Assembly: GCA_900318995.1 (NCBI GenBank)
Contig: ONMR01000004.1
Span: 1 to 64,000 of the forward strand
Length of the DNA stretch: 64,000 bases
DNA from: an uncultured Prevotellaceae bacterium
GTDB taxonomy: Bacteria; Bacteroidota; Bacteroidia; Bacteroidales; Bacteroidaceae
Direction: 5' to 3'
The first letter of the stretch is position 1; every line of letters begins with the position of its first letter. Both the position numbers and the translations under genes were made by a program. Positions 5,372-58,338 of this stretch are shown piece after piece. Below the pieces are notes generated by a model, which saw only the letters and a list, made by a program, of their open reading frames with translations, made no database searches and had not been told where the DNA came from.

Positions 5372-5409
5372 AAATAGTACAAAAGGGGACAGGCCCTTTT
5401 GTACTATTT
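5372..5409. repeat. Palindromic 3'-end element, copy A (single form)
   Basis: A perfect 16-bp stem (AAATAGTACAAAAGGG against its complement, loop GACAGG) starts 4 bp after the GH51 stop and is followed by a T-run, so it should terminate the GH51 transcript. The AATGATAC prefix, AGTAC and GGGGACAGG core relate it to the copies near 48.0, 52.9, 54.8 and 58.3 kb. The rightward TTTTG of its arm serves as the -33 box of the tRNA-Gly promoter. Confidence 0.8.
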
Positions 5410-5429
5410 TTTAAAAATGATTATCTTTG
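5398..5429 (+). promoter_or_regulatory. tRNA-Gly promoter (TTTG-N20-TATCTTTG)
   Basis: TTTG (5398-5401) and TATCTTTG (5422-5429) are separated by exactly 20 nt, matching the Bacteroidota sigma-ABfr consensus, with the tRNA beginning 10 nt further on. The -33 box lies inside the right arm of palindrome A. Confidence 0.75.
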
Positions 5430-5439
5430 TGGCCGATTT

Positions 5440-5512
5440 GCGATAGTAGCTCAGTTGGTAGAGCGTTGGCTTCCCAAGCCGAAGGTCGCGGGATCGTGCC
5501 CCGTCTATCGCT
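5440..5512 (+). tRNA. tRNA-Gly(CCC)
   Basis: It folds as a full cloverleaf: acceptor GCGATAG/CTATCGC, D-stem GCTC/GAGC, anticodon stem TTGGC/GCCGA with loop TTCCCAA (anticodon CCC at 5473-5475), variable AGGTC, and T-stem GCGGG/CCCGT. The T-loop reads ATCGTGC rather than the usual TTCGANN, so it lacks a canonical T54. CCA is not encoded. Confidence 0.9.
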
Positions 5513-5515
5513 CAT

Positions 5516-5554
5516 GGAAAGGGTTCCAGAAAATTGGAGCTCTTTCCCTTTTTA
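5516..5554 (+). terminator. tRNA-Gly terminator
   Basis: GGAAAGGGTTCCA pairs with TGGAGCTCTTTCC (13 bp with two G-T pairs) around a GAAAAT loop and is followed by CTTTTTAT. It begins 4 nt after the tRNA. Confidence 0.75.
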
Positions 5555-5556
5555 TT

Positions 5557-5571
5557 GGCTTGGGAAGCCAA
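5557..5571 (-). repeat. Inverted copy of the tRNA-Gly anticodon arm
   Basis: GGCTTGGGAAGCCAA is the exact reverse complement of 5466-5480, the anticodon stem-loop of the tRNA upstream. It lies immediately before the tRNA-like remnant and indicates local inversion or duplication. Confidence 0.7.
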
Positions 5572-5580
5572 AGGCTTGTC

Positions 5581-8522: not shown

Positions 8523-9284
8523 ATGCACTATATAAGAGTATTAATGATGTCCATACTGATAGGCCCGGGTTGTCTGGGCGGCTTGTCAGCACAGGTGCTT
8601 CCGGTGCTGAACAGTTTCAGTAACCGGAATTTCAAGGGAACGGTCGATGTGTCATGGCCGGTCTTGTTTGAAAGGTGCACTTTTACGACAGACAGCATCG
8701 TTCTGCGTCATTCATACGGAGCGGTGTTCAGGAACTGCAAATTTGAATGCACAGACGGAGTGCTGTTTATCGCGGAGAGCGGAGACGGTATCATTCTGGC
8801 CGATTGTGACATTGATGGATGTAAGGCTTTCAGGTTCAGTAGGACACCCGGTCTGTCAGACCGGAATTATGTTACAGATGTGAGACTGGACGGCGAAGAG
8901 TATTCTGTGCCTGATGACCAGGAGACTATAACGGAAATCGACGGACTTGAATTGGGGGAGAGAGTTACAGGCGGTTTGTCCGGGCCTCTGGTAATGATGA
9001 TGAGCGCCGACAGAAACATTCTGAAACACGGCGAGAGTACAGAACTGAGAGTGAGAGGCCTTGAACAAGGGATGTTCGTAGGATGGCGTTCATCTGAATC
9101 GGATGTACGCATCGTTGTGGAAGGTGACGGATACAGTTGCCGGGTTTATGCTCCCGATTCCATCGGCAAACAGGAAAACGTTATTATATCAGCATATACC
9201 GAATACGGACTGGAGGCTGCATGCCAGCTCCAATTGATGCCTGATACGCAATCGGTTAATGTGAGAAAGAAGAGGAAAGGATGA
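8523..9284 (+). CDS. Secreted beta-helix/Ig-like protein of the kinase operon, function unknown
   Basis: I do not recognise a named family. It has a signal peptide of about 23 residues (SILIGPGCLGGLSA/Q). About residues 30-110 show short repeated strands with buried Cys/Phe residues (FERCTFTT, FRNCKFEC, LADCDIDG), which resemble right-handed beta-helix coils. About 150-240 read as an Ig-like domain (ILKHGESTELRVRGLE, YSCRVYAPDS). The C-terminus is basic (VRKKRKG). Its last codon and stop overlap the kinase start by 4 bp (ATGA), so the two are translationally coupled. An extracytoplasmic ligand-binding or accessory role for the kinase is inferred from that coupling only. Confidence 0.7.
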   Translation: MHYIRVLMMSILIGPGCLGGLSAQVLPVLNSFSNRNFKGTVDVSWPVLFERCTFTTDSIVLRHSYGAVFRNCKFECTDGVLFIAESGDGIILADCDIDGCKAFRFSRTPGLSDRNYVTDVRLDGEEYSVPDDQETITEIDGLELGERVTGGLSGPLVMMMSADRNILKHGESTELRVRGLEQGMFVGWRSSESDVRIVVEGDGYSCRVYAPDSIGKQENVIISAYTEYGLEAACQLQLMPDTQSVNVRKKRKG

Positions 9285-12200
9285 GGCACTGTAAGATAAG
9301 GTATGTGGTTTTGACTGTGCTGTGCTGCATTGCGGTTAGCAGACAGGCTGCGGCAAAGAGCTCCGGGGGCATGGCGTTTGACCTGAATGAGAGAGCCATT
9401 TCTTATCTTTGGAATAACCTGGATTCGGCCGAGCAGTATGCCAGGTATGCCCTTGAGGTGTCGGGCCGCCATTCTGATGAGCGTGCCAAAGCGGTCAATA
9501 CTCTGGCCCGTATAGCTTTCATGAGGATGGACTTTACCCGTTCATGGGAACTTTACAGTTCAGTGCCCGCTATCACCAGAAATATGCTTGAGGTAGTGGC
9601 ATCGGAGATAGGCTTGATGCGCATATGCCAGCGTACATCGGACAATGTGTCTTTCTACGAATACAGGAACAGGATCCTGTTGGACCTGCGGGCATTGCAT
9701 GAGGAGCAGGAGACTCTGAATGATGCCCAGACTGAACGTTTGCTGTCATTGGAACGGTCGTTCAGGATGGAATCGGCACGATACTGGTTTGAGTTGGAGC
9801 AGTTGGGTCTGGCAGGGCATGAGATGTCTTATGTGGTTGCCGATAATCTTCTGCGTGACGACCATGACCGGTACCTTACATATACTTATATGCGGGGCCT
9901 CGGTATCGGGTTGGATTCTTATGGCAGCGAGGATCTGCTGTCCCAAAGGCTGCGCAGCCTTGACAACTGTCTGCGTGGTGCAGTCAGATACAATAATGTG
10001 AGGATGCAGGCTCTGAGCATAAGCGCCATCTGCTCCCTGTTGCTGGAATATGGACCGGCCAATGTGCTGTCGGGTGTGAGCGATGAGATGCTTTCACGCC
10101 TGAACGCGTCCGATGTGCAGCCTGAACTGCTCCCTACACAGCTTGCTCTTAAGGCCTTGCAGCTTTCGGCATCATATGGAGGACAGTATGAAATAATAGA
10201 GAGTGAGAGACTGCTGGCATCATGTTATATAGAGCGCGGATTGTACGGGGAGGCTCTCGGGGTATTGTCCAAGGCTCTTGAGATGCTCAATGACAATCTG
10301 CGGCTTAACAGCGCCGGACAGGTTAGCCTTGAACCCCTGGCGATGTTCAGGGATGATGATCTGATAGCTGAAGAGGAGTGGATGGCAGCGATGCCGCACG
10401 GGGTTGTGCCGGAGTGTCTCTCTTCATTGCGCGAGCAGATGAGCCTTACCTATTCGGGTCTTGACAATAAGCGTGCCTCGGATTATAACAGGACAGTCTA
10501 TCTGGAAATACAGAAAACAATCCGTCTGGACCGAAGATATGAGGCTCGCAATATCCTTCTGCGACGCTCCAATATGCGCCTGACCGGTATGCTTTATGCT
10601 GTGGCAGCGGCCATCCTGCTGTTCGTCATTTTCATCCTGTTGTTCCACAAACGTATCAATGCGGCTAACAACAGGTATGTCGAGATGATAAAGAGGACTG
10701 TAGGGCTATGCGAGACTATATTGCGACCGGTCCCGGCGGGCACCGATATCATTGAGTGGCTGAACAGCGTGGCGGCTCCCGAGTTGAAAGATATGACGGG
10801 GGCTGAATCAGTAACTATTGATGAGAATGCAGGGATATCGGCATCATGGGGCGTAAAACGGGCAAGTAGGGATGACAGGGCATTCCTTAACACAGTGGTT
10901 CCGTACCTGAAGGCCGCCCTCCGTAACGCCGATGAGCTGGTGGGACAGGCGGACCGTCTCAAACAGGCGGAGAAACAGCATTATCTGTATAGCCTGCATG
11001 CAGAGAACAATAAACGCGAGAATCTGGCGCGTAAGACATGCTGCCAAGTGGTTGCAGAGTGTCTGCCATATATAGACCGCATGCGCTCGGAGATAGACCA
11101 CTTGGCCGATATGCCTGCAGACAGCGATCAGTATGCCCAGAGTCTTGAGTACGTACGTGAACTGGCTGAGCGCATCAATCAGTACAACGAGCTGCTCTCC
11201 GGATGGATTCGCATCCGTCAGGGTGTCGTTGCATTGAACATTGAGTCTTTTCCTGTGCAGGAGCTGTTTGATATTGTCGGTCACAGCAGCCGAAGTTTCA
11301 TGCAGAAGGGTTTGGAACTGAATGTAAAGGAGACTGACGCCGTAGTCCGCGCGGACCGTGTGCTTACGCTGTTTATGATCAATACATTGGCAGACAATGC
11401 CAGAAAATTCACTCCTGCCGGCGGTAGTGTGGTGGTTGAAGCCCTTGAGGGTGATGATTATGTGGAACTGGCTGTCGAGGATACAGGGTTCGGAATGAGT
11501 GCGGATGATGTGCGTATGATACGGGATGAAAAGGTATTGGATCCGGACAGAATTGGACAGGGACAACAAAAGGGTAAAGGCAGCGGATTCGGACTCATGA
11601 GCTGCAAAGGTATAATCGATAAATACCGGAAGACTGATGACCTGTTCAATGTGTGCAGTTTCAATGTGGAGAGCACACCAGGTAAGGGAAGCCGGTTCTC
11701 ATTCCGCCTGCCTAAAGGAATAAGACGTATACTTGCCGTGCTGACAGTGCTGTGTTCGGGTCTGACTGGCCTGGCTCAGGAGACCGAAGGTAACAGGGAC
11801 AGCCTGCTGGTGAAAGCTTATGATTATGCTCATCAGACATATCTTTGCAATACGGAGGGACGCTTTGAGGAGGCTCTGTTATATGCTGATTCGGCTTTTG
11901 ATGCCCTGAACAAGGATTATCTGCAGCACAACGGATCGGAAGATATGCTGCTGTCGGTAATTGATGTCCTTGCTCCGGCCGAGACATATTGGCTTGAGGA
12001 GGGATTCGCAACTGATTACGAAACCGTATTGTGGTTGCGCAATGAGATAGCAGTTTCGGCCCTGGCCACTCGTGACTGGGATATCTACCGTTATAATGAT
12101 GACGCTTACCTGAAGCTGTTCAAACTCTATTTCGGCGAGTGGAAGATAGAGGATGATTGCAGGAAACTCCAACATACCAACAGCAACCTGTCTATTGCCG

Positions 12201-45176: not shown

Positions 45177-48038
45177 ATGGATAAATCTGGAATTAAAGTT
45201 ACCGGAGCCAGGTCCAATAACCTGAAAAACATAGATGTGGAGATTCCGCACAAGTCACTTACCGTGGTGACCGGTCTGAGCGGAAGCGGTAAGTCATCAC
45301 TGGCCTTTGATACGATTTATGCCGAGGGGCAGCGTCGTTACATAGAGACATTTTCGGCCTATGCCCGCAATTTCCTGGGTAACCTGCAGCGTCCCGATGT
45401 GGACCGTATCACGGGACTGAGCCCTGTTATTTCAATTGAACAGAAAACCACCAACCGCAATCCGCGTTCTACAGTTGGAACCGTGACCGAAGTCTATGAT
45501 TATCTGAGACTTTTGTTTGCGCGTGCGGGTGAGGCTTTTTCTTACCTGAGCGGCGAGAAGATGGTCAAGTTCACCGAGGAGCAGATAGTGGAGCGCATCG
45601 TATCGGACTATGAGGGACAGCGTATCTACGTGCTGGCTCCGCTGGTGCGCAACCGCAAGGGCCATTACAAGGAGCTGTTTGAGAGCATACGCCGCAAGGG
45701 ATATATCAATGTCCGTGTGGACGGTGAGATGCGTGAGGTAAAGCCCGGCATGAAACTGGACCGTTACCGCAACCATGATATAGAGGTGGTGATTGAGAAA
45801 CTGGTGGTGAATGAGAAATACCGCCACCGTCTGAGTGACAGCGTGGCACTGGCCATGAAACAGGGCGACGGCATGATGATGGTGCTCTCCATGCCTCAGG
45901 AGACCATTCCGGGCCGTGCGGAGCAGGGCGTGCTCAAACACTACAGCAAGCGGCTGATGTGTCCCACTACGGGTATATCGTACCGCGATCCCGCGCCCCA
46001 TAACTTCTCGTTCAACTCTCCGCAGGGATTCTGCCCCAAGTGCAAGGGATTGGGATATATATCGGCCGTGGATGAGGACAAGGTGCTTCCGGACCGTTCG
46101 CTTTCGGTTAAGAAAGGTGCTATAGCTCCCCTCGGACCGTTTAAGAATACGCTTATATTCAGGCAGATAACCGCTCTGCTGGCCAAATATGACTATACGC
46201 TCGATACTCCAATTTCGGAGATGACCAATGATGTGGTCGATGAGTTGCTGAACGGATGCGACGAGCGCATTAAGGTTCAGATTACCGGTATTAACAGTGA
46301 GGCTGATGCCGTTTTCATGGAGTACGAGGGCGTGGTCAAATACGTGCGCTCGCTCCAGCAGCAGACAGACCTGTCGGCTGCCGAGCAGAAGTGGGCCGAT
46401 CAGTTCGCTGTTACGCGCGTGTGCCCCGAGTGCGGCGGTGCGCGTCTTAATAAGGAGGCCCTGAACTTCCGCATTGACGGCAAGAACATATACGAGCTGG
46501 CATCGATGGATATACAGGACCTCTACGAGTGGTGCTGCACTGTTGAGCCACGCCTGAGTGAGCGCCAGCGTACCATTGCATCCGAGATTCTCAAGGAGAT
46601 TCGTACCCGTCTGGGCTTTATGCTTGAGGTGGGGCTGGATTATCTGTCGCTCAACCGTCCGGCCGAATCGCTTTCGGGCGGCGAGGAGCAGCGTATCCGT
46701 CTGGCTACGCAGATAGGCTCCAAGCTGGTCAATGTGCTTTATATCCTTGACGAGCCCAGCATCGGACTCCATCAGCGTGACAACGTGCGTCTGATTGAGT
46801 CCCTCAAACAGTTGCGTGACGGCGGCAACACCGTTCTTGTGGTGGAGCATGACCGCGATATGATGCTGGCGGCCGACTGGATAATAGATCTTGGGCCGCG
46901 TGCCGGACGCAAGGGTGGTGAAGTGGTGTTCCAGGGTACTGTTGAAGATATGCTCAAGACCGGGACCCTAACCGCAGGATACCTGAACGGCAAGCTGGAT
47001 ACTTTTGAGGGCGTGTTGTCGGACCGCCGTGCCGGCAACGGACAGAGCATTGTGCTGCGTGGCTGCCGGGGCAATAACTTAAAGGGCATCGATGTGGAGT
47101 TCCCGCTGGGCAAGCTCATCTGCGTGACGGGTGTATCGGGCAGCGGCAAGTCAACGCTGGTAAACGAGACGCTTCAGCCCATACTGTCGCAGAAGTTCTA
47201 CAGGTCCCTGAAAGAACCTCTGGCATATGACTCGATTGATGGTATTGACCTGATAGACAAGGTGGTGGATGTGGACCAATCGCCCATAGGACGTTCTCCG
47301 CGTTCCAATCCTGCCACATATACGGGGGTGTTCAGCGATATCCGTCAGCTCTTTGTGGAGTTGCCTGAATCCAAGATACGTGCATACAAGCCGGGCCGGT
47401 TCTCGTTTAATGTCTCCGGCGGCCGGTGCGAGGCCTGCGGCGGAAACGGCTACAAGACCATCGAGATGAATTTCCTGCCCGACGTGATGGTGCCCTGCGA
47501 GGTCTGTCACGGCAAGCGTTACAACCGCGAGACCCTGGAGGTGCGTTACAAGGGCAAGTCCATTGCCGATATCCTGGACATGACCATCAATATGGCAGTG
47601 GAGTTTTTTGAGAACGTTCCCACCATACTTAACAAGATAAAGGTGCTGCAGGATGTGGGCCTGGGTTATCTCAAACTGGGCCAGCCCTCAACTACCATAT
47701 CGGGCGGCGAGAGCCAGCGCGTCAAACTGGCCACCGAACTTGCCAAACGTGATACCGGCAAGACTCTCTACATACTGGACGAGCCTACCACTGGCCTGCA
47801 CTTTGAGGATATCCGCGTCCTGATGGGTGTGCTCAACCGCCTGGTTGACAAGGGCAACACAGTTATCGTGATTGAGCACAACATGGACGTGATCAAGCAG
47901 GCCGACTGGATCATCGACATCGGCCCCGAAGGCGGTCGCGGCGGCGGCATGATTGTGGCTCAGGGCACCCCCGAGCAGGTAGCCGCCTCCGGCAAGGGCT
48001 ACACCTCGCGCTTCCTCTCCGAGGAGCTCTCCCGCTAA
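45177..48038 (+). CDS. uvrA: Excinuclease ABC subunit A
   Basis: The damage-recognition ATPase of nucleotide excision repair, 953 residues from the ATG (a GTG three bases earlier is possible). Two ABC modules are present: Walker [13 protein letters not shown] and [11 protein letters not shown], signatures LSGGEEQRI and [12 protein letters not shown], and Walker [12 protein letters not shown] and [12 protein letters not shown]. Zinc modules are [18 protein letters not shown] and [10 protein letters not shown]...CEVCHGKRY. The stop TAA uses the first two A of the palindromic element B. Confidence 0.97.
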
Positions 48039-48121
48039 AATGATACCAAAGGGGTCAGGCCCCAATGGTATCATTTTTGAAAAATAGTACCATTGGGGCC
48101 TGACCCCTTTGGTATCATTTT
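48037..48121. repeat. Palindromic 3'-end element, copy B (double form)
   Basis: A perfect 34-bp inverted repeat (48037-48070 against 48088-48121, arms beginning AAAATGATACCAAAGGGG) surrounds a 17-nt centre, TCATTTTTGAAAAATAG. Each arm is itself nearly palindromic (ATACCAAAGGGG..CCCCAATGGTAT). It completes the uvrA stop (TAA) and supplies the TGA of the converging gene at 48115. It should act as a bidirectional terminator. Copy D is identical but inverted. Confidence 0.93.
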
Positions 48122-49116
48122 ACCTTGATGGTTTGGGTTCCGTCGGGGCTTTGGAGAGTGATGTTGTAGATGGCGGAGCCGGAATCGGGCCGGGGGAAGG
48201 AGAGGAATTCCGATGCCTGGGCAGTGCCGATAAGACGGCCGTCCATACCTGTAACCGATACTTTCTCACCGGATTTTGCATCGGACACCATTACGTTGAT
48301 TGTCTGGTCCGTGCTGCTGACACTCATGCGTGTGCTTACTCTGCCGATTGCCTGAACCGAGCTTGTCTTGGGATTGATAAGGTACATACCGCAATGATAT
48401 TCCGTGCGGTAATCATCTTTGCGCCCAATCTTTTCCAGGGTTGACATGTAGAGCATTCCATCTATTTTGGCAATGTAATATCCTGTTAGTTCCATAGTAA
48501 ACTGGCCGTGTTGCTCACTGTCCGGCATTTTGCAATAAGCCAGTTCTGTTCCGTCCTGATTCATGATCTTGAATCCCTTGATGACCTTGATCCTTGTAAT
48601 ATGGCGATAGGTCATATCGTCTTTAGTAGATTCCGAACCCTGGTCCGGAGTATCAAGGAAGTCCACATCGGCCACAATGTACTCCCACTTGTCATCCGTG
48701 TTGAACAGGTTCTGGCTTATCATAACCTTTGATGTGGGGTAATATGAGTTGTCCACGTCCCGATATTCAAAACTGAGCAGGGTGGGCTCATATCCGGAAT
48801 CGGAATTATCGGAGAAATCAAACTCCCAGTCGGTGCCGTTTGCGGATTTCTGCCAGTAGTTGCTGGCTATCTCAGAGTTGTCTATTTTTACCGATGCTTT
48901 CACTTCCGATTGGCTCCGGGCAACCATAAGTTCGGCCTGAGTCCTTTCGTCGTGAAAATCATATACAGCCATATAGGCCACGCCGTCATTTGCCAGTTGC
49001 TTGGGAATGGGCTCAAATCCGCCACTGCTCATACGGTCAGTCATAATCACGTTTTGTGAACGGGCCGGCATGCATAATGCCAGCAAGGCCATAACAGTCA
49101 AAGTAGTTTTTCTCAT
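48115..49116 (-). CDS. Secreted protein with Por-secretion-like C-terminal tail
   Basis: 333 residues with a signal peptide ending ARS/Q. I do not recognise the body (about 25-260), which is rich in beta-strands and acidic. The final 75 residues (INVMVSDAKSGEKVSVTGMDG, cited as SGEKVSVTGMDGRLIGTA, to IYNITLQSPDGTQTIKVK) look like the type A sorting fold of type IX secretion cargo. The last Lys codon and TGA stop come from palindrome B, so the original C-terminus may have been altered. A TACTTTTG motif lies upstream. Confidence 0.72.
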   Translation of the reverse strand: MRKTTLTVMALLALCMPARSQNVIMTDRMSSGGFEPIPKQLANDGVAYMAVYDFHDERTQAELMVARSQSEVKASVKIDNSEIASNYWQKSANGTDWEFDFSDNSDSGYEPTLLSFEYRDVDNSYYPTSKVMISQNLFNTDDKWEYIVADVDFLDTPDQGSESTKDDMTYRHITRIKVIKGFKIMNQDGTELAYCKMPDSEQHGQFTMELTGYYIAKIDGMLYMSTLEKIGRKDDYRTEYHCGMYLINPKTSSVQAIGRVSTRMSVSSTDQTINVMVSDAKSGEKVSVTGMDGRLIGTAQASEFLSFPRPDSGSAIYNITLQSPDGTQTIKVK

Positions 49117-49137
49117 AATTCAAATTATTGGTTGCAG

Positions 49138-49145
49138 CAAAAGTA
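49138..49145 (-). promoter_or_regulatory. -7 motif of the 48.1-49.1 kb secreted protein gene
   Basis: TACTTTTG on the minus strand, 21 bp upstream of the start. Confidence 0.5.
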
Positions 49146-49252
49146 TCCATATGTCTGATTTGGGGTGTGGTGGAATCCGCCACATCGCGTGAGGTGAAGT
49201 TATGGTTGTCCTGTAAAAATCATTGATTATCTTAGCAGACTCTAATGTGTAT

Positions 49253-52228
49253 ATGCGCAGATTTATTTTGACATTCCTGATATTGCTATTTTCCTGCGGT
49301 ATGATGCCGGTCAGGGGTGCTGCGCCGCGCTTTATGAATTATACATCGGCCGATGGCCTGAGTTCCAACACCGTGCTCTCCATGCTTCAGGACCGTGACG
49401 GCTTGATATGGATAGGTACCACCAACGGTCTGAACAGGTTTGACGGCTGTACATTCAAGGTTTACAAACGGTCCGATGGCTTATCGGACAACCAGATCAA
49501 CGCCCTGGAAGCGGATAATGACGGCAGGCTGTGGATAGGTACTTCCAAAGGACTTTGCCTGATGGAGGGGCAGGAGATAAACGTGTGCCGCGCGGACGGT
49601 TATGTAAGGGCGCTTCTTTGTGATAATGAAGGTTTTCTGTGGGTGACATACAATGACTGGAGAATAGAGAAGATTGACATTTCCAATGAAACATTCCCGG
49701 TTGTGGCCCGGTCATCATACGGCACTGGTCTGGTTGAAGGGGATTACTATTACAACCAGTTGTATGCCGATGCTCAGGGTGATATCTGGATAGGCGGGCG
49801 TCTGGTAGCCGGAAAGAAGGTTGTTGACCGACAGACGGCGCAGTTGCAGGAATATGAAGGGAGCGGGTGTATAGGCAGCTTTGCTCCCGGCAGGAACGGT
49901 GGGCTGATAGGGTTCAATGACTTTACCACGATGCTGATGACGTTTGACGGCACCAGGTTCGTGAACATCGGCCCTATGCTTGTGGCCCACTGTCGCCTTA
50001 TCAGAGACAGTCATGGGCGTCTTTGGGCTGCGGGATACAGCGGAATTATGATAGTTGATGAGGATGATCCCATAAGAAGTGAGGTGTTCCGGCATGATTC
50101 ATCAGATCCATATTCACCCGGTCCGTCGGAGTTTTACTGCGTGCTTGAGGACAGGCAGGGAAACTTGTGGTTCGGCGGCGACAAAGGTGTGGCGGTATAT
50201 ACGCGTATTACAAATATGGTTAAGAACCACCGTCAGGGCGATAACATAACCGCATTGCTGGAGGCACGTGACGGCCGGATGTGGGTAGGCACCAAAGAGG
50301 ACAACATAACAAGCCTGTATGAGGACAGCCAGGGGTGTATCTACACCGGATACTGGGAATTCGGCAAGGGGTTTGACCGGTATGATCCCGCCACCGGAGT
50401 TACGCGCCGGTATGTGCTGCGTGGTGATATACTGCCTCTGCAGGATAAGGTGTATTCCGGTGACCTTATAGGCGCCAACTGGTACAACGGGTTCCTGGAG
50501 GACAGCCGGGGCAACCTGTGGTGTATTACCTGGGAAGGTTACGGACTGAACCTGTTTGACCGCAGTAAAGGGGAGTTCATGCCTCCCCTGTGGCTCAGTC
50601 CTTTCAAAAGACCAACTCCCGATGTGGACAAACCGGAGTATGTAAGTTCCCGTCTGGGCAGTTGCGCCATCGAGGACAGCAAGGGCCGGATCTATTACGG
50701 CACCACCTTTGCCGGACTGAACATAATAGACCCCGATACCAGGTTAGTAAGGAAATTCATTACCGATGACAACATAACTGATCTGGCCCTTGTGACCGAT
50801 GACCGCGTGTATGCAGGCACCCATCGCGGACTGTTCGTGCTCAGTGACGGTGACAGCACGGGCTGGATGGCCGAAGGCATGAAGATAAACAGCGTCGAGG
50901 CAGACCGTAACGGACGCATCTGGGCCGGTACTGATGAGGGCCTGATATTTATTGATACCGACTCTACCTGCGGAAAGGTTCCGTCGTGGATAGGTATATC
51001 GCAGGATATATTCAGCGAGAGGGTTTCATGCCCGCTTCATGACGGCTGCCTTGCATTCGGCGGCAGTTCTGGGTATGACACATTCAACCCCGATACGCTG
51101 ATTGCCGCATCCTCCGGTATGCATCTCAGTGTCTGTGATTTTACTCTTGAAGGCGGGCATCTGCAACTGTCATTCTCAGTCACGGATATTCCGGTGGCCC
51201 GACATGTTGAATACAGGTACAAGCTTGAAGGATACGATACCGAGTGGATTCCAACCACCTGGCAGCAGGCCAAGGTCAACTATTCCGGACTTGCTCCCGG
51301 CCGATACACGCTCAGGGTGGGGTGTACGGATATTTTTGGCCGATGGGAGCACGGAGACGAACTCTTGATTCCCATAGTAATCCGGCCTCCGTTGCTTCTC
51401 AGATGGCCGTTCATCATACTCTATCTGTTGGTTGCTGGCACCCTTCTGTGGCTGTTCGTATGGCTCAGGGAGCGTAATCTGAGGATTGAGAAGGCAAGAC
51501 TTGAAGATGCCGTGAACATCAAGACATCGGAACTTAGGGCCGAGATAGAGACCCGAAACCGTTTTTTCTCAATCATATCGCATGACCTCAAAAATCCTGT
51601 GACAGGGGTTGCACAGCTGGCTTCGCAGTTATCGGCCCATATTGATACATTGGATCATGAATCGCTAAAAAGCGGAGTGGATACCCTGCGTGACGTCTCC
51701 AACAGCACGCGGGATATGCTTGAGGACCTGCTGCTTTGGGCTGTCAGTCAGAATGATATGATCAAGGCCGAGATCCGGCAGGTTCCGCTGGATGAGATAA
51801 TAGACCGTTCGCTGTCCAATGTCAGTGACCGTGCTAAAACTAAAGGTGTTGGCATAGAGAAACAGATGCCGGACGGTCTGATGGTGTCGTGTGACCGCCA
51901 GTTGCTGGTAACGGTACTCAGGAATATTCTTGAGAATGCTGTCAAGTACTCGTATCCGGGCGGAACGGTAACGGTTATGGCGGTTGATACTGAACGGGCA
52001 ACGGAGATATCGGTCAATGACCAGGGGCCCGGAATCAGTCAGGATAAGCTGGATGACCTGTTCAGGATAGACAAGATGCACTCAACCGAAGGTACCCAGG
52101 GCGAGAAAGGCACTGGATTGGGACTGATTATCTCACGTGAACTCTTGCTCAGGATGGGTGCGGGGATATCGGTCAGGAATCTTCCGCAAGGGGGATGCTC
52201 GTTTACTGTAACACTTAATAAACAATGA
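49253..52228 (+). CDS. Two-component sensor kinase with beta-propeller sensor
   Basis: About 991 residues from MRRFILTFLILLFSC. The periplasmic part has regulator-propeller repeats (DGLSSNTVLSMLQDRDGLIW, GLIWIGTTNGLNRFD, GRLWIGTSKGL and so on) and a Y_Y_Y Ig-like domain (VEYRYKLEGYDTEWIPTTW, then PGRYTLRVGC). A span (about 720-740) follows. The kinase core has H-box IISHDLKNPV, N-box ILENAVKYS, G1 VNDQGPGIS and G2 GEKGTGLGLIIS, all intact. This is the sensor layout of hybrid two-component systems, but receiver and AraC output are absent and a separate regulator follows 1 bp later. Confidence 0.93.
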   Translation: MRRFILTFLILLFSCGMMPVRGAAPRFMNYTSADGLSSNTVLSMLQDRDGLIWIGTTNGLNRFDGCTFKVYKRSDGLSDNQINALEADNDGRLWIGTSKGLCLMEGQEINVCRADGYVRALLCDNEGFLWVTYNDWRIEKIDISNETFPVVARSSYGTGLVEGDYYYNQLYADAQGDIWIGGRLVAGKKVVDRQTAQLQEYEGSGCIGSFAPGRNGGLIGFNDFTTMLMTFDGTRFVNIGPMLVAHCRLIRDSHGRLWAAGYSGIMIVDEDDPIRSEVFRHDSSDPYSPGPSEFYCVLEDRQGNLWFGGDKGVAVYTRITNMVKNHRQGDNITALLEARDGRMWVGTKEDNITSLYEDSQGCIYTGYWEFGKGFDRYDPATGVTRRYVLRGDILPLQDKVYSGDLIGANWYNGFLEDSRGNLWCITWEGYGLNLFDRSKGEFMPPLWLSPFKRPTPDVDKPEYVSSRLGSCAIEDSKGRIYYGTTFAGLNIIDPDTRLVRKFITDDNITDLALVTDDRVYAGTHRGLFVLSDGDSTGWMAEGMKINSVEADRNGRIWAGTDEGLIFIDTDSTCGKVPSWIGISQDIFSERVSCPLHDGCLAFGGSSGYDTFNPDTLIAASSGMHLSVCDFTLEGGHLQLSFSVTDIPVARHVEYRYKLEGYDTEWIPTTWQQAKVNYSGLAPGRYTLRVGCTDIFGRWEHGDELLIPIVIRPPLLLRWPFIILYLLVAGTLLWLFVWLRERNLRIEKARLEDAVNIKTSELRAEIETRNRFFSIISHDLKNPVTGVAQLASQLSAHIDTLDHESLKSGVDTLRDVSNSTRDMLEDLLLWAVSQNDMIKAEIRQVPLDEIIDRSLSNVSDRAKTKGVGIEKQMPDGLMVSCDRQLLVTVLRNILENAVKYSYPGGTVTVMAVDTERATEISVNDQGPGISQDKLDDLFRIDKMHSTEGTQGEKGTGLGLIISRELLLRMGAGISVRNLPQGGCSFTVTLNKQ

Positions 52229-52229
52229 T

Positions 52230-52898
52230 ATGGCTCAGACAAAGAAGATACTTCTGGTAGATGACTCGCAGATTTTCCTGATGGGACTCAGGATGGCGTT
52301 CCAGGCTGCGGATTGGGTGGACGGGATTTATGAGGCGCGCAATCAGGACCAGGCGCTCAAGATGCTGGAGTCTCATGATGACATTAGCCTGGCAATAATT
52401 GACGTCTGCCTTGAAAAGAGAGCCGACGGACTGGAGCTGATACGTCAGATCAAGGATAAACATCCGGCTGTAAAGACGCTTGTGCTGTCACAGTACAAGA
52501 ATCCGGATTTTATCTGCAGGGCCATTGTATCGGGTGCATATGCGTATATCGCCAAGGATTCTGAGGCAGATGTCATTGTATCTGCATCAAAGAATGTGGC
52601 CGATGGCTGCTGCATATTCTTTGGTGACACTATCTCAAAGGACCTGCTTACCCGTCTGTTCGGGAATGCCGATAACATCAGGAACGGAAAGCCACATCAG
52701 CTCTCGGTCCAGGAACTGGCTGTACTGCAATATGCGGCATCGGGCTACGGCAACGCGCAGATAGCCGCCGTCATGAGCATATCATCAAATACCGTTGAGA
52801 GCTATAAGGAGCGCATCAAGAACAAACTGGGCTATGATACTATAATTGAGTGCGTTGCGTTCGCTGTCAGCAACGGCCTAATCGGCTTCAAGGACTAG
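52230..52898 (+). CDS. NarL/LuxR-type response regulator
   Basis: A receiver (about 5-120) with D11/D12, phosphoacceptor D58 in AIIDVCLE, S87 in LVLSQYK and K109 in YIAKDSE, then a GerE-type helix-turn-helix (LSVQELAVLQYAASGYGNAQ and SSNTVESYKERIKNKLG). It starts 1 bp after the propeller kinase and is surely its partner. Targets are unknown; adjacent glycan genes are candidates only by position. Its TAG stop abuts palindrome C. Confidence 0.93.
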   Translation: MAQTKKILLVDDSQIFLMGLRMAFQAADWVDGIYEARNQDQALKMLESHDDISLAIIDVCLEKRADGLELIRQIKDKHPAVKTLVLSQYKNPDFICRAIVSGAYAYIAKDSEADVIVSASKNVADGCCIFFGDTISKDLLTRLFGNADNIRNGKPHQLSVQELAVLQYAASGYGNAQIAAVMSISSNTVESYKERIKNKLGYDTIIECVAFAVSNGLIGFKD

Positions 52899-52981
52899 AA
52901 TGATACAATTGGGGACAGACCCCTTTTGTATCATTTTTGGAAAATAGTACAAAAGGGGTCTGTCCCCAATTGTATCATTTT
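52899..52981. repeat. Palindromic 3'-end element, copy C (double form, variant core)
   Basis: A perfect 32-bp inverted repeat (52899-52930 against 52948-52979, arms beginning AATGATACAATTGGGGACAG) with centre TCATTTTTGGAAAATAG, one base different from B. The core uses GGGGACAGACCCC instead of GGGGTCAGGCCCC. It supplies the TGA of the converging GH2 gene and abuts the stop of the response regulator. Confidence 0.92.
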
Positions 52982-54768
52982 GTGCTGTACCAGGATTGGA
53001 GGATGTAGAAGGCTTTCTTTTTCTCGCCCTTGTCAGAGTAGAGGCCTTTGCGGTTGTAGTAGTCCTGGATGCCGTCCAGTACGCGGCGCGGTGAGCGGAA
53101 ATCCTTCATGATCCAGGGGGTGGTGCCTACCAGACCCTCTATCTTATCCAGCATGGCCAGGTTCTCTATGTAGAGGTTCTCCTGGAACTCCTCGGTCCAG
53201 CGTTCGTTCTTATCTCCGTGCAGGCCGTATCGGGCGCCTCCTCCAAACTCGCTTACTATGACCGGTTTGTCATACGGGATTTCCCATTCCATCTTGGGCG
53301 CGTCATTGACATCCCTGTACCAGCCGATGTACTGGTTGAACGATATCACATCTACGTATTCGTTCATGTTGTCCTGCAGGCGGTTCTTGTAGTTGGAGGC
53401 CGATGTCACCTCCATTGCCATCGATATGAGACGGGTGTCGTCCAGGCTGCGTGCGGTCTTGGCCAGGCTGCTCAGGAACTTGTCGCGCTCGGGGCTGTGG
53501 GGAGTCTCATTGGCTACGCTCCAGATGATTACGTTGGCACGGTTCTGGTCGCGGCGAATCATATCGGTAAGTTGACGCTCGGCGTTTGCGTAGGTATCGG
53601 GATTGGTCCAGGTAATTGTCCAATAGACCGGAATTTCTGACCAGACCAGGATGCCCATCTTCTCGGCCTCGCGTACCATATACTCGTTGTGGGGGTAGTG
53701 GGCCAGACGTACGTAGTTGCAGCCCAGTTCCCTGGCCCAGGAGAGTAGGGTGCGGGCATCTTCAACGCTGTTGGTGCGGCCTCCGCCGTTGGGCTTCTCG
53801 TCATGGATGCTTATACCTTTCAGGAATATGGGCTTGCCGTTCAGCAGCAGCTGCTTGCCTTTGGTCTCGATGGTGCGGAAACCAATCCGGTCCTTCAGGG
53901 TCTCATCTGCCAGCGTAATCTCCACATCATAGAGCTTGGGGTTATCGGGTGACCATAGTTGCAGCTTTTTGGCCTTGAACTGTACCTGGGCGGTTCCGTT
54001 GTCATCGGTCACAAGTTTTTTGGTAATCTTGAGTTCGGGGATGCTCAGCGTTATCTGCCGGCCGGCCAGCTTCTCATTCAGATTGACGTTGAAACTGATC
54101 TGGTCCGGGGCCGATTTGTCCAGACTGAGTTTGTAGTTCTCAATATAGACTGGTGCCACATCGATAAGCAAAACGTCACGTGTTATGCCGCCGTAGTTCC
54201 ACCAGTCAAATATCTGGGTGGGGACATTTTCGGCCTTGCGCTTGTTGTCCACCTTGACAATCACAAAGTTATCGCCATCGGTGAGCAGGTCCGTAATGTC
54301 CATGTTGAACGGGGTGAATCCGCCCACATGATAGCCGGCATTCCTGCCGTTCACCCACACGCGGGCCTCGTAATTGACTGCACCAAAGTAGAGTATGGTC
54401 CTGTGGTCATCGGCCTTACTGTGCCACTCAAACGAGCGCTTGAACCAGACGGTTCCTTCATAGAAGAACAGCTGCTCATTCTGGGTGTTCCAGTCGCCGG
54501 GTATGTTCATCACCGCGGCCTTGTCAAAGTCATATTCTATAAGGTCCTCGGGTCGCTGGGGCTTGGCGTTCCTGAAGAATCCCCATGCGGTGGGGTTCAT
54601 GCGGTAATCATAGTAGCCTTCCTCCTGTACATCGATTATGTAATTCCACTCTCCGTTGAGCGATGTGATGTTACGGGCCTGGACGTTGGCCAGTTGCGGC
54701 ACCTCTACAGCCGTTGCGTTGGCGGCTGCCAGGCAGATGGTCAGTAATGTGATAATTCCCTTTTTCAT
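52975..54768 (-). CDS. GH2 family beta-glycosidase (beta-glucuronidase/galactosidase type)
   Basis: 597 residues from MKKGIITLLTICLAAANATA, a signal peptide; the frame opens further upstream but inside palindrome D. It has the sugar-binding sandwich, Ig-like domain and barrel of GH2: FKRSFEWHSKADDHRT then YFGAVNYEARVWVNGRNAGYH in part, GVSIHDE-like GISIHDEKP, acid/base Glu in WSVANETPHS and nucleophile Glu in VIVSEFGGG. The short length favours the beta-glucuronidase-like subgroup, and the exact sugar is open. The final Lys codon and TGA stop come from palindrome C. Confidence 0.9.
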   Translation of the reverse strand: MKKGIITLLTICLAAANATAVEVPQLANVQARNITSLNGEWNYIIDVQEEGYYDYRMNPTAWGFFRNAKPQRPEDLIEYDFDKAAVMNIPGDWNTQNEQLFFYEGTVWFKRSFEWHSKADDHRTILYFGAVNYEARVWVNGRNAGYHVGGFTPFNMDITDLLTDGDNFVIVKVDNKRKAENVPTQIFDWWNYGGITRDVLLIDVAPVYIENYKLSLDKSAPDQISFNVNLNEKLAGRQITLSIPELKITKKLVTDDNGTAQVQFKAKKLQLWSPDNPKLYDVEITLADETLKDRIGFRTIETKGKQLLLNGKPIFLKGISIHDEKPNGGGRTNSVEDARTLLSWARELGCNYVRLAHYPHNEYMVREAEKMGILVWSEIPVYWTITWTNPDTYANAERQLTDMIRRDQNRANVIIWSVANETPHSPERDKFLSSLAKTARSLDDTRLISMAMEVTSASNYKNRLQDNMNEYVDVISFNQYIGWYRDVNDAPKMEWEIPYDKPVIVSEFGGGARYGLHGDKNERWTEEFQENLYIENLAMLDKIEGLVGTTPWIMKDFRSPRRVLDGIQDYYNRKGLYSDKGEKKKAFYILQSWYSTK

Positions 54769-54784
54769 TTGAGCAAAGTTTTTT

Positions 54785-54793
54785 GCAAACATA
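54785..54793 (-). promoter_or_regulatory. -7 motif of the GH2 gene
   Basis: TATGTTTGC on the minus strand, 17 bp upstream of the ATG at 54768. This supports that start and places the promoter just downstream of palindrome D. Confidence 0.6.
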
Positions 54794-54805: not shown

Positions 54806-54890
54806 AAAATGATACCAAAGGGGTCAGGCCCCAATGGTACTATTTTTCAAAAATGATACCATTGGGGCCTGACCCCTTTGGTATCATTTT
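54806..54890. repeat. Palindromic 3'-end element, copy D (double form, B inverted)
   Basis: Arms 54806-54839 and 54857-54890 are identical to those of copy B. The 17-nt centre CTATTTTTCAAAAATGA is the exact reverse complement of B's, so the whole 85-bp element is B in the opposite orientation. It supplies the AAA-TGA end of the EamA gene and separates it from the GH2 promoter. Confidence 0.93.
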
Positions 54891-55774: not shown

Positions 55775-55780
55775 CGGGGT

Positions 55781-55789
55781 GCAAAGATA
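55781..55789 (-). promoter_or_regulatory. -7 motif of the EamA gene
   Basis: TATCTTTGC on the minus strand just upstream of the start. It implies a very short leader or a leaderless message. Confidence 0.5.
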
Positions 55790-55800
55790 CAACAGTTTTT

Positions 55801-55939
55801 GCCAAAGTGTCCCACAACGACCCCGCTCACAGCGCTTGTGGGGCGCATCGGTGTGTTACATACCCTCTGTATGATGGTGTGTTCCACAACGAGGGACGCC
55901 AGGAGGCTCACAAGGCCGATTGGTGTGGGACACTTTGGC
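55801..55939. repeat. MITE-like 139-bp element with 16-bp terminal inverted repeats
   Basis: GCCAAAGTGTCCCACA (55801-55816) and its exact complement (55924-55939) flank 107 bp with no gene. The interior has small palindromes (CCCCGCTCACAGCGCTTGTGGGG region and CATAC..GTATG). No target-site duplication is obvious (TTTTT left, GGATT right). Its right end provides the -33 box of the GH95 promoter. It could instead be a structured RNA leader. Confidence 0.6.
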
Positions 55940-55965
55940 GGATTAGGAAAGTTTCCCTAAGTTTG
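55934..55965 (+). promoter_or_regulatory. GH95 gene promoter (TTTG-N20-TAAGTTTG)
   Basis: TTTG (55934-55937) inside the right terminal repeat of the MITE-like element and TAAGTTTG (55958-55965) have the ideal 20-nt spacing. The ATG follows 17 bp later. Confidence 0.75.
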
Positions 55966-55982
55966 CGGTAAATTATATGCTT

Positions 55983-58304
55983 ATGAGATACGTTCCGATA
56001 TTGGCGATGTTTGTGCTTACTGCATGTGCAGCACCGCGGCAGGGAGAGATGAAACTGCATTATGACAGGCCTGCTGATTACTTTGAGGAGGCGCTACCTA
56101 TAGGAAACGGACGGCTGGGCGCGATGGTTTACGGCGGTACAGCCGCTGATAAGCTGTCATTGAACGATATAACCCTGTGGACCGGGGAGCCGGAAAGCAA
56201 GGCGGACCATGTGGATATGGAGTTGTATCCCGGTCTTACCCGATGGGGTGAGGCTGCCCGATACATTGACTCCATCCGTATGGCGCTTGATGCCGAGGAT
56301 TACCGCAAGGCAGAGCGTCTGCAGCGCAAGGTCCAGGGGCATTACAGTGAGAATTACCAGCCGCTGGGTACGCTCACTATCCGCTATCCGGAGGCTGAGA
56401 TATCGGAATACAACAGGGAACTGGACATATCGGAGGCAGTAGCCAGAGTCTCTTATCTTCGTGACGGAAAGAGTTTCAGCACGGAGTATTTTGCATCGGC
56501 TCCGGATTCTGTGATCGTGGTGAGGATCAAGAGCGCCCAACCTGTTGATGCAGAGCTGGTTCTGGATTATCCTCATCCGCATGAGGCGGTTTATGACGAT
56601 GGCCGCATTACGGTTGATGGCTATGTGGCATACCATTCTTATCCCAACTATTTCCGGACCAGGCATGAGCGATTCATGTACTCTCCGGACAGGGGAATCC
56701 ATTACCGCACCATACTGCTTGCGGAGTGTGACGGCCGGACTGAGACCGATGGTAAGTCACTGTCCCTTAAAGGAGTAAAGGAGGCTGTCATCAGGATAGT
56801 AAACTCCACATCGTTCAACGGTTTTGACCATGATCCGGTGAAAGAAGGGCTACCTTACCGTGAACTGGCCGATGCCAACGCGGCGCGTGTATGCGGCAAA
56901 AACTTCGATGAAATCCGGAAAAAACATGTTGCTGACTACAAAAGTTTCTTTGACCGTCTGACAATAAACCTTGGCAAGACCGATCCCGGAATAAAGGCAT
57001 TGCCTACCGATGAGCAACTCAAGCTCTACTCGGATGAGAATCAGGCCAATCCGGAGCTTGAGGCTCTTTATTTCCAGTATGGCAGGTATCTGCTAATTTC
57101 CAGTTCGCGCACTCCCGGCGTGCCGGCCAACCTGCAGGGACTCTGGAACGAGAGCATTGAACCGCCCTGGAGCGGAAACTACACCATAAACATCAACCTG
57201 CAGGAAAACTACTGGCCGGCCGAGCCTGCAGCATTGCCCGAGATGCATGAGGTGATGCTGGACTATGTGAACAATATGTCCATATCGGGAATTGAAACGG
57301 CCCGTAATTACCTGGGTGTGGATCAGGGCTGGGCATCGGGCCACAATAGCGATATCTGGGCAACAGCCAATCCGGTGGGCTTGGGGTCAGGTGATCCCAA
57401 CTGGGCCAACTGGTATATGTCCGGTCCGTGGCTGGCTACGCATATCTGGGAACATTATCTGTTTACCCGTGACCTGGAGCGCCTTAAGAAGGATTATTCT
57501 GCATTGAAAGGTGCTGCTGAATTCTGTATGGCCTGGCTGGTTGAGAAAGACGGAGAGCTGATAACATCGCCCTCTACATCGCCCGAGAACAAATACATTA
57601 CCGACAAGGGATTTCATGGCGCGACACTTTACGGCGGAACTGCTGATATCGCGATGATACGGGAATGCCTCATGGATGCACGGGCGGCATCACTTGAATT
57701 GTCGGAGCCGGTTTTTGCCGAAAGATGTGATTCTTACATCGGCAGGCTGCGTCCCTATCATATAGGTGCTGACGGTCATCTACAGGAGTGGTACTATGAC
57801 TGGGCCGATGAGGATCCGCAACACCGCCACCAGTCACATCTGTTCGGAGTATATCCGGGTCATCAGATAAGTGGAGGAGAATATGCCGATGCTGCACTCA
57901 AGTCTCTTGAAATAAAGGGGTTTGAGACTACCGGCTGGAGCTGCGGCTGGCGCATAAACCTCTATGCCCGACTCAGGGACGCCGACAACGCATACCGTAT
58001 GTATAGGCGTTTGTTACGGTATATCAGCCCCGACAATTACCGCGGTCCCGATGCTCGCCGTGGCGGCGGCACTTACCCCAATCTGCTGGATGCCCATTCG
58101 CCGTTCCAGATAGACGGCAATTTTGGAGGCTGTGCCGGAGTGATGGAGATGCTGTTGCGCTCTGAGGAGCATCTGGTGGACCCATTGCCTGCACTGCCTG
58201 CTGCCTGGCCCGACGGCTACATCCGCGGCATCCGCACCCGCACCGGCCAGGCCGTTGACCTAGTCTGGAAGAACGGCCAGGTCAGGAAACTTAAAGTAAA
58301 ATGA
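55983..58304 (+). CDS. GH95 family alpha-L-fucosidase/galactosidase lipoprotein
   Basis: A glycosidase of the GH95 family (alpha-1,2-L-fucosidase or alpha-L-galactosidase), about 773 residues. The ATG at 55983 gives a lipobox FVLTAC (Cys15); an ATG six bases upstream is equivalent. The N-terminal domain has EEALPIGNGRLGAMVYGG and NDITLWTGEPE. The (alpha/alpha)6 barrel has LQGLWNESIEPPWSGNY, NINLQENYWPAEPA and HQSHLFGVYPG, which match conserved active-site regions. It targets fucosylated or galactosylated side chains of plant or host glycans. Its last Lys codon and TGA stop come from palindrome E. Confidence 0.93.
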   Translation: MRYVPILAMFVLTACAAPRQGEMKLHYDRPADYFEEALPIGNGRLGAMVYGGTAADKLSLNDITLWTGEPESKADHVDMELYPGLTRWGEAARYIDSIRMALDAEDYRKAERLQRKVQGHYSENYQPLGTLTIRYPEAEISEYNRELDISEAVARVSYLRDGKSFSTEYFASAPDSVIVVRIKSAQPVDAELVLDYPHPHEAVYDDGRITVDGYVAYHSYPNYFRTRHERFMYSPDRGIHYRTILLAECDGRTETDGKSLSLKGVKEAVIRIVNSTSFNGFDHDPVKEGLPYRELADANAARVCGKNFDEIRKKHVADYKSFFDRLTINLGKTDPGIKALPTDEQLKLYSDENQANPELEALYFQYGRYLLISSSRTPGVPANLQGLWNESIEPPWSGNYTININLQENYWPAEPAALPEMHEVMLDYVNNMSISGIETARNYLGVDQGWASGHNSDIWATANPVGLGSGDPNWANWYMSGPWLATHIWEHYLFTRDLERLKKDYSALKGAAEFCMAWLVEKDGELITSPSTSPENKYITDKGFHGATLYGGTADIAMIRECLMDARAASLELSEPVFAERCDSYIGRLRPYHIGADGHLQEWYYDWADEDPQHRHQSHLFGVYPGHQISGGEYADAALKSLEIKGFETTGWSCGWRINLYARLRDADNAYRMYRRLLRYISPDNYRGPDARRGGGTYPNLLDAHSPFQIDGNFGGCAGVMEMLLRSEEHLVDPLPALPAAWPDGYIRGIRTRTGQAVDLVWKNGQVRKLKVK

Positions 58305-58338
58305 TACAAAAGGGGTCAGGCCCCTTTGGTATCATTTT
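58298..58338. repeat. Palindromic 3'-end element, copy E (single form)
   Basis: An 18-bp stem AAAATGATACAAAAGGGG with one A-G mismatch against CCCCTTTGGTATCATTTT and loop TCAGG. It provides AAA-TGA to both converging genes (GH95 and the methyltransferase), so two stop codons are in one 41-bp repeat. Confidence 0.92.

Follow-up and report, generated by a model that had tools for sequence, protein, structure and literature searches.

A stop-docked palindromic repeat of the REP/REPIN class in an uncultured gut-type bacterium

Introduction

The described systems closest to the element reported here are the REP and REPIN repeats that occur with RAYT genes. Passages of PMC2817692 describe REPs very near, or immediately behind, the stop codon of rayt, and passages of PMC3733652 (Di Nocera et al. 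2013) place the GTAG- and CGTC-tagged REPs of convergent genes mostly less than 20 bp from both 3′ ends. Those passages also record REPs that give TAG stops or lie in frame, intragenic REPs, and the Rickettsia palindromic elements (RPE), palindromes in frame in likely functional genes.

The present element resembles REP/REPIN repeats with RAYT in its short palindromes, its more than 100 copies, its inverted doublets, its single flanked RAYT-like gene and its gene-end location. It differs in carrying no GTAG or CGTC tag, in its one dominant register at the stop codon and in that some copies are coding. Compared with the REPs of Di Nocera et al., TGA is here commoner than TAG (37 to 16), protein length was set against element-free orthologues, and in-frame copies in ManC co-vary within genomes. 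In-frame palindromes in genes are shared with RPE, but here only 5 of 91 blocks are intragenic, the majority is docked at stops and a RAYT is present. The element is a variant of the REP/REPIN-RAYT class without the tag, and its stop-docked form is an unusually precise one for this known class of bacterial repeats.

IS200/IS605 elements insert next to a short target sequence, which the end of the element repeats. They share the HuH/Y1 nuclease class with the system described here, whereas the element itself is a non-coding unit of 41-44 nt with a putative target motif. How RAYTs choose their sites, and whether the gene-end bias of REPs reflects targeting or selection, are to our knowledge open questions; the 37 genomes of this genus, with their comparable empty and filled sites and a single prevailing register, bring targeting versus selection within reach of a test.

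Results

The window, the whole stretch of 64,000 nt that was analysed, comes from the genome of an uncultured gut-type bacterium (G000). It holds five copies of the element, two singles and three inverted doubles, where a sequence-only reading had placed them, and all five lie at gene 3′ ends, even if the 54.8-kb copy has the GH2 5′ end on its left. At up to two mismatches, GGGGWCAGRCCCC has 18 matches in the 64-kb window against 4.8 (sd 2.2) in shuffled sequences, and none of 100 shuffles reached 18.

The first copy, a degenerate single (5371-5411; one core mismatch, degenerate right arm), stands behind the stop of a GH51-type arabinofuranosidase gene that ends in TGA followed directly by TAC (5366-5371), the TGA (5366-5368) belonging to an extra arm piece ahead of the hairpin. 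A tRNA-Gly gene lies downstream (5440-5513). An inverted double (48037-48121) separates uvrA, whose TAA (48036-48038) has two bases in common with the element arm, from the 48.1-kb gene (A48), whose TGA, at its low end at 48115, forms bases 5-7 of the arm (AAAATGA). A second double (52897-52981) lies between a response-regulator gene, the TAG of which (52896-52898) likewise has two bases in common with the arm, and GH2, whose TGA at 52975 also occupies arm bases 5-7 (AAAATGA); the same bases serve the EamA transporter gene (TGA at 54884, AAAATGA) at the third double (54806-54890), between the GH2 5′ end and the EamA 3′ end. The last copy is a single (58298-58338) that bridges GH95 and a THUMP-like methyltransferase gene where they converge, with both stops (TGA 58302-58304 and TGA at 58332) inside its arms as AAAATGA. 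Because this one element serves two convergent stops, it did not arise by one simple insertion, unless the genes had overlapped. The seven stop contacts listed by the sequence-only reading are all borne out, and the response-regulator TAG, absent from that list, makes an eighth.

Four RNA folds gave hairpins with z between −5.9 and −16.9: −22.4 kcal/mol (z −7.0) for 5371-5411, −69.4 kcal/mol (z −16.9) for 48037-48121, −65.7 kcal/mol (z −14.3) for 52897-52981 and −24.8 kcal/mol (z −5.9) for 58298-58338. These predicted structures support the terminator-like folding proposed earlier, and the element may function as a terminator. Of the four copies within 44-64 kb, a pattern scan for terminators flagged the one at 58.3 kb, on both strands; in all it returned 22 sites, where shuffled sequences gave 17.0 (sd 3.7).

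Across the genome, 118 exact cores were found and none with a reversed-pattern control; all 118 sites were taken with their flanks for analysis, and degenerate copies are under-counted in all counts. The unit is a short palindrome of 41 nt with many similar copies, as expected of a REP, and 28 of 91 blocks are doubles (25 ‘+-’, 2 ‘++’ and 1 ‘-+’), most of them the inverted REP pairs of a REPIN, as had been suspected. Singles are commoner than doubles and may be the moving unit. A GTAG or CGTC tetranucleotide is absent from the hairpin foot, where the consensus, read by eye, is AAAATGATAC or AAAATAGTAC. Outside called genes lie 86 of the 91 blocks; the other five are inside four genes, and 54 gene ends extend to base seven of the arm.

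The distances to stop codons reveal one dominant register at 3′ ends. TAC directly follows the stop (AAAATGA or AAAATAG, then TAC) in 54 of the 122 gene 3′ ends of G000 that face an element (54/113 in another count). The same register recurs in 9 of 17 3′ flanks of another species, G021, and in 8 of 28 of a family with a different core in G011, counted from 30 loci in each genome (185 and 77 cores, respectively). Gene ends in AAAATGA or AAAATAG make up 39/97 near elements versus 8/216 elsewhere, a contrast inflated by the element's own arm. Among element-free orthologous ends, a final lysine is found in 19 of 40, against 56 of 216 G000 ends away from elements (p 0.008). TGA/TAG is not enriched in these orthologues (24/40 versus 108/216, p 0.30), which leaves TGA/TAG alone unsupported as an insertion target.

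The genome contains one RAYT-like gene, the sole Y1_Tnp match in an assembly that is 86.8% complete, such that a second could be missed. It lies outside the window (contig C6, 9047-9841; 9044-9841 at locus L034), its own stop abuts an element, and copies flank it at 8966-9050 and 9896-9989; the search for a RAYT transposase that the sequence-only reading proposed found this candidate. The protein scores 45 bits against Pfam Y1_Tnp (cut-off 23) over residues 59-132, and carries the motifs NHVH and YVHQNP, which read as the HuH and Y of a Y1 domain. Its 56.1 bits fall below the curated cut-off of 80 for NCBIfam REP_Tyr_transpos, and phmmer against the PDB returned no relative, the one match being an acyltransferase (E 0.28). 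According to passages of PMC6006769, NHVH, FQ (our own reading) and the length of 265 aa resemble subclass 2.1, YVHQNP is nearer to 2.6, and subclass 2.1 is not flanked by REP-like structures.

Core number varies from 0 to 185 across the 37 genus genomes. Core counts are 44-185 in all ten genomes whose RAYT is at least 80% identical, compared with 0-83 in the other 27 (p 1e-5, a value that ignores kinship); G007, G009, G010, G020 and G026 have 39-83 cores yet no RAYT match at E 1e-12. The RAYT loci displayed were 50 of 80. The doubles support a dispersed REPIN-like family, and the register supports a niche at gene ends.

Protein ends were compared with orthologues by reducing 89 gene ends to 60 C-terminal segments, 46 of which entered one comparison and all 60 two others. 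From 62 orthologue ends, 22 apparently holding a repeat were removed, leaving 40 element-free ends; a set of 79 ends entered without one-by-one repeat screening. Length is identical in 24 of the 40 and within one residue in 34 (+1 in 8, −1 in 2), in keeping with the small coding loss predicted earlier, and this peak at 0 disfavours plain truncation as the main process. The sequence-only reading had expected element-free orthologues to have other C-termini: in length they are the same, but the final residue (no lysine in 21/40) or the type of stop (TAA in 16/40) is often different.

A few empty/filled junction pairs were picked by eye from 44 comparisons at 18 of the 91 blocks, among pairs without an intact core and with gaps of at most 60. 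Against G029, the junction at L065 is GGCGAAAAATAG followed by TCTGATT (+44 nt, stop unchanged), and at L069 GGAAAATGA followed by ACTT (about +45, TGA kept). At PMI (CCGAAAAAT, +44 nt) the native stop persists downstream and the used stop is on the element side; at L061 (UvrA2; CTCAAAAAA) the element is a double, the native TTGA is left behind it and the protein is one residue shorter. A run of at least 4 A marks each of the four junctions, and a second element-free relative backs the polarity of insertion at L065 (where G011 also has no element) and PMI. At a fifth site, L038, the gene lost six residues. The claim that the element supplies stop codons therefore fares unevenly. As read from the alignments, it appears right at L061, L038 and PMI (by G029, not by G011), and these sites contradict a stop that is native in every case. 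Neither the sequence nor the position of the stop at L065 and L069 depends on whether the element is present, so that either nothing was supplied or the case is undecidable. With a native stop behind the element at L061 and PMI, and six residues lost at L038, the element does not always dock behind a stop that was already there.

These pairs bear on the model of the sequence-only reading, random insertion followed by purifying selection, in which either end of the element offers, within its first seven bases, a stop in one of the three frames, and in-frame cuts of the last codons, being near neutral, survive. It accords with the use of the element's stop at L061, the loss at L038, the often new final lysine and the arms themselves, where TGA or TAG occurs in just one frame; genes entering in other frames read through, as in ManC, FeoAB, CobB/CobQ-like and PARG-like genes and the L057 pair. 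A spread of losses would be expected, however, instead of a peak at 0, the stop is unchanged at L065 and L069, and a 3′ spacer should offer more harmless sites (element-free convergent spacers have a median of 26 bp, with 3/27 at or below 0). We consider this model possible but somewhat unlikely.

With an element, the residual convergent spacer is ≤0 in 27 of 34 cases versus 3 of 27 without (p 9e-8), the 27 being too high because blocks with a native stretch between two REPs were counted as element. Such a contrast would follow if recombination or gene conversion put the element in place of a gene's own 3′ hairpin or spacer, element and native sequence both being palindromes bounded by A and T runs, with no targeting by a transposase. 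At the Wzz junction, between two TAA stops, a native hairpin in G036 corresponds to the element in G000; in the L085 pair a short G011 spacer has been replaced, and the two ManC copies homogenise. Yet a native-looking terminator (by eye) persists behind the docked element at L048 and L071, and four pairs are net additions. We regard replacement as quite improbable.

ManC contains two copies in frame. In eight comparable genomes these copies are alike within a genome and different between species, identical in five and differing by 1-2 in three; this set left out G002, G006, G010 (state as in G000), G013 (a double at either site, the two almost alike), G029 (two sites that differ, contrary to the claim), G008 and G011 (single site) and element-free genomes. 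The homogenisation of copies suggested earlier gains support from this likeness, for which gene conversion could account. Since element-free ManC loops are nearly as long as element-bearing ones, the ManC copies look like replacements. In ManC, a mobile repeat sets the sequences of protein segments in step within one genome. A purely extragenic REP fails for this gene as it does for the FeoA-FeoB, CobB/CobQ-like and PARG-like genes.

Discussion

The reading we prefer, which we judge about equally likely to be right or wrong, is a REP/REPIN-class palindrome moved by RAYT and settling at gene 3′ ends by way of an A run and T. The RAYT-like Y1 (HuH) nuclease would probably move the element, perhaps by single-strand insertion, to the extreme 3′ end of a gene, beside an A run then T, typically a lysine codon and the stop. 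Its arms would recreate AAAAT(GA or AG), so that a stop would coincide with the native one or lie no more than about one residue from it. The outcome would vary, the stop being unchanged at some sites and the element's TGA or TAG used at others with the native stop behind. By analogy with IS200/IS605, the A run with T(GA or AG) may act as a cleavage/target sequence, which would also explain the doubles, each copy ending in the same motif. Purifying selection would then clear most other insertions. What the comparisons show directly is the register, a protein length that hardly changes, the plain additions, the association with RAYT, the likeness of the two ManC copies inside a genome and the gene blocks bounded by elements. 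A stricter version, in which the RAYT-driven palindrome targets lysine-stop gene ends, recognising the A run with T(GA or AG), docking and rebuilding the stop in place, is tentative and, in our view, unlikely.

If this stricter version is true, the element would spread through gene 3′ ends with next to no loss of coding sequence and give them a standard stop-hairpin end, an in-frame copy would make part of a protein, as in ManC, follow the concerted evolution of the repeat, and recombination between the standard ends would let genes be swapped. Two gene blocks of the window are bounded by elements on both sides. The 48.1-kb gene, a propeller histidine kinase and the response regulator (48115-52898) were not found in five relatives, where uvrA, element and GH2 are joined, and the GH2 gene (52975-54792, minus strand) was not found at this place in G015, G018 and G033. 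Misjoining of metagenome-assembled genomes at repeats is a highly improbable source of such patterns: the compared genomes are in many contigs, the named relatives are mostly MAGs and repeats are natural misjoin points, but uvrA-element-GH2 and the pair of in-frame copies in ManC are seen again in several relatives, where the element sequences are specific to the species. The element-bounded blocks suggest that standard 3′ ends allow clean gene gain or loss; gene blocks of the window are present or absent by species, and their junctions mostly carry the element.

A REP/REPIN-like family throughout the genome

The window comprises bases 1-64000 of contig C22 of G000, a genome of 2.50 Mb in 42 contigs (86.8% complete). 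The five palindromes named by the sequence-only reading, at 5.37, 48.04, 52.90, 54.81 and 58.30 kb, are all real. Each 41-nt unit consists of AAAATGATAC or AAAATAGTAC, four bases, the core GGGG-N-CAG-N-CCCC, four more bases and the reverse-complementary arm. Exact cores number 118 in the whole genome, split 61 to 57 between the strands, and the reversed control pattern gave no match; one core, at locus L084, lacks recognisable arms and is probably a chance match. A looser scan of G000 grouped 119 REPs into 91 blocks, 28 of them double, with '+-' orientation in 25 of these 28, and near-matches in the window number 18 against 4.8 expected. The pattern is real and unusual, and much of its original interpretation is upheld. 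The best reading of the element is a REP/REPIN-RAYT variant whose docking site is the lysine-stop end of genes, where a stop then remains close to its former position and is sometimes the element's own.

Docking at stop codons

A hexamer-based caller predicted 352 genes over 389 kb of sequence, 90% of it coding. By gene context, 35 of the 91 blocks are convergent, 40 tandem, 8 divergent and 5 intragenic, and 3 have no neighbour on one side. Among the 113 gene 3' ends that face a block at any distance, 54 stop at base seven of an arm (37 TGA, 16 TAG, 1 TAA), typically as AAAATGA or AAAATAG directly before TAC, the register termed docked here; stop and arm have two bases in common at a further 12 ends (11 TAA, 1 TAG) and one base at 9. 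A second counting script placed TAC directly after the stop in 54/122 cases in G000, in 9/17 in G021 (30 loci representing 17 distinct blocks; lysine is the last residue in all nine), and in 8/28 for the GGGGACGGTTC family of G011. This sister family (L375-L404), with core GGGGACGGTTC(N)GTTTGG and 77 exact matches, docks in the same register, and G011 carries a RAYT (71% identical). Repeats with different arms lie close behind stop codons in G008 (L215, GTGGAAAAGGGG type) and G016 (L200, ACATTAGGGACGG type).

No residual spacer is left (length zero or below) at 27 of 34 convergent junctions with the element versus 3 of 27 without it; the first count is somewhat too high, since a native stretch retained between the two REPs of a block is scored as element. 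By eye, the helicase and ACH genes of L048 are each docked to a separate REP and a terminator of native appearance lies between the two, and AspS in L071 also retains such a terminator behind its REP. At 58298-58338 and some other sites, both stops are served by one 41-nt element. A single insertion is insufficient for this unless the genes overlapped, which they seem to do in G015, or recombination joined two element ends.

The predicted RNA folds have energies of -24.8 kcal/mol (z -5.9) for the single copy at 58.3 kb, -22.4 kcal/mol (z -7.0) for the 5.4 kb copy, and -69.4 and -65.7 kcal/mol (z -16.9 and -14.3) for two doubles. On either strand the stem is followed by a run of T. A terminator scan of 44-64 kb flagged only one of the four copies there, its 22 sites being hardly above the 17.0 (sd 3.7) in shuffles. 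The element may plausibly terminate transcription, as first proposed.

Origin of the stop codon

Twelve stop-docked genes were sought in 16 element-poor members of the genus. Ten of them yielded 79 gene ends, unscreened for repeats, of which 65 differed from the G000 length by one residue at most. A second set comprised 62 orthologous ends of docked genes from G011 and G029, a close relative (UvrA 98% identical) with 18 cores; 40 ends, from 30 genes, were apparently repeat-free. Of these, 24 equalled the G000 length, 10 were off by one residue and 4 by two, while both repeat-free orthologues at L038 were longer than the G000 gene by 6-7. Lysine was the final residue in 19 of the 40, compared with 56 of 216 element-distant G000 gene ends (p 0.008), as a preference for lysine-stop ends would predict; the other 21 ended in another residue. 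Stop types (18 TGA, 6 TAG, 16 TAA) did not differ clearly from the 216 ends (p 0.30).

Junctions were aligned at five sites, picked from 44 listed comparisons (18 of the 91 blocks) and from the comparison of docked-gene ends. At L065 the G000 sequence exceeds that of G029 (GGCGAAAAATAG|TCTGATT) by 44 nt, with TAG as the stop in both and the final two bases assignable to either side; G011 likewise lacks the element. At L069 (GGAAAATGA|ACTT in G029), G000 has about 45 nt more after the retained TGA. The PMI gene of G000 has 44 nt more than that of G029, whose sequence GAAAAATGATG is intact behind the element, placing the used TAG on the element's side; G011 has TAG at the same place without an element. 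At L061, the gene for UvrA2 (contig C24, 33262-36078), a double element was added within CTCAAAAAA; behind it comes the native TTGACTA, and the protein has one residue fewer than its G029 counterpart. UvrA2 is a second UvrA, 46% identical, whose gene ends in this double element in the same register. The L038 gene stops six residues early, and the sequence behind the element looks like what is left of the native end. All four plain additions have their junction at four or more consecutive A. The proposal that the element makes the stop codon therefore holds clearly at L061 and L038 and possibly at PMI; at L065 and L069 the stop is unchanged.

In-frame copies within genes

The five intragenic blocks are in frame and occupy four called genes: ManC (L034 6804-7865, contig C6), with two copies 198 bp apart, a FeoA-FeoB linker (L035 2603-4414), a CobB/CobQ-like glutamine amidotransferase (L062 2363-2953) and a microbial PARG-like protein (L080 13138-14097). 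Across 25 aligned genomes of the genus, both ManC sites hold recognisable copies of matching type in 12; the types differ between the two sites in G029, only one site is filled in G008 and G011, and the rest have none. In eight genomes the two 28-nt cores differ on average by 0.6 within a genome (identical in five) and by 3.4-4.2 between genomes at the same site (permutation p 0.0003, kinship ignored). Element-free loops measure 45-54 nt at site 1 (G012 much longer) versus 54 with the element, and mostly 36 versus 48 nt at site 2. These gains are smaller than plain insertion requires, so replacement or compensation took place.

Element-bounded gene blocks

Downstream of uvrA, the order in G000 is uvrA, element, A48, a propeller histidine kinase and a response regulator, element, GH2, element, EamA and GH95, element, and a THUMP-like methyltransferase. 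Among hits above 60% identity, uvrA, element and GH2 follow each other without A48, kinase and regulator in G002, G005, G008, G021 and G025; in G010 an element separates uvrA from EamA, and in G015, G018 and G033 GH2 was not found at this place. G015 and G033 carry degenerate elements that can be seen in one comparison of the locus and went unmatched in the block scan, and certain relatives' stretches stop early at contig ends. Element-flanked gene blocks are thus present or absent between genomes, with an element at most junctions, and recombination between elements may underlie their gain and loss. A48 (48115-49071, 318 aa), the gene adjoining the uvrA element, matched no Pfam family at E 1e-5; its presence and absence follow those of the kinase and regulator genes.

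Relation to known systems

REPINs have been defined previously (PMC3116915). Di Nocera et al. 2013 (PMC3733652) describe convergent REPs that for the most part lie less than 20 bp from the ends of both genes, GTAG REPs as a frequent source of the TAG stop, and REPs inside genes; another paper discusses translation and E. coli REPs at most 15 nt from stop codons (PMC12306157). The open-access literature searched held no closer precedent than Di Nocera et al. To that extent the following are new: one register dominates, with TGA or TAG; protein ends were compared with those of element-free orthologues; the in-frame ManC copies co-vary; and gene blocks are bounded by elements.

Distribution and the associated transposase

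At least one core occurs in 54 of the 120 genomes searched, G000 included. Within its genus these are 30 of 37 genomes (0 to 185 cores each); outside it, 24 of 83 genomes have 1 to 5 cores, where the reversed control reaches 4. The RAYT transposase suggested as a check is represented in G000 by one RAYT-like gene, its only Y1_Tnp match (Pfam; 265 aa), which matches the NCBIfam RAYT model below threshold. Elements flank it on both sides, and its stop abuts one of them; REPs near or immediately behind the rayt stop have been reported (Nunvar et al. 2010, PMC2817692). Ten of the 37 genus genomes carry a RAYT with at least 80% identity (partial in G012) and have 44-185 cores, versus 0-83 in the remaining 27 (Mann-Whitney p 1e-5, kinship ignored). 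A simple dependence of cores on RAYT is opposed by 5 of these 27, which have 39-83 cores without a RAYT hit, although they are draft genomes. RAYTs have been sorted into subclasses, and genes of subclass 2.1 reportedly lack flanking REP-like structures (PMC6006769); the G000 protein mixes 2.1-like (NHVH, FQ, long) and 2.6-like (YVHQNP) features.

In G036 and G022 (L203, L206) the RAYT gene runs into a truncated element and ends at a core-internal TGA, gaining a short tail. Among distant RAYT relatives (L088-L149; Prevotella, other Bacteroidales and at least one Clostridia locus), 50 of 80 loci were judged by eye, and in a number of them a repeat of the GGGACGGTTC or GGGGACAGG type touches or overlaps the RAYT stop codon.
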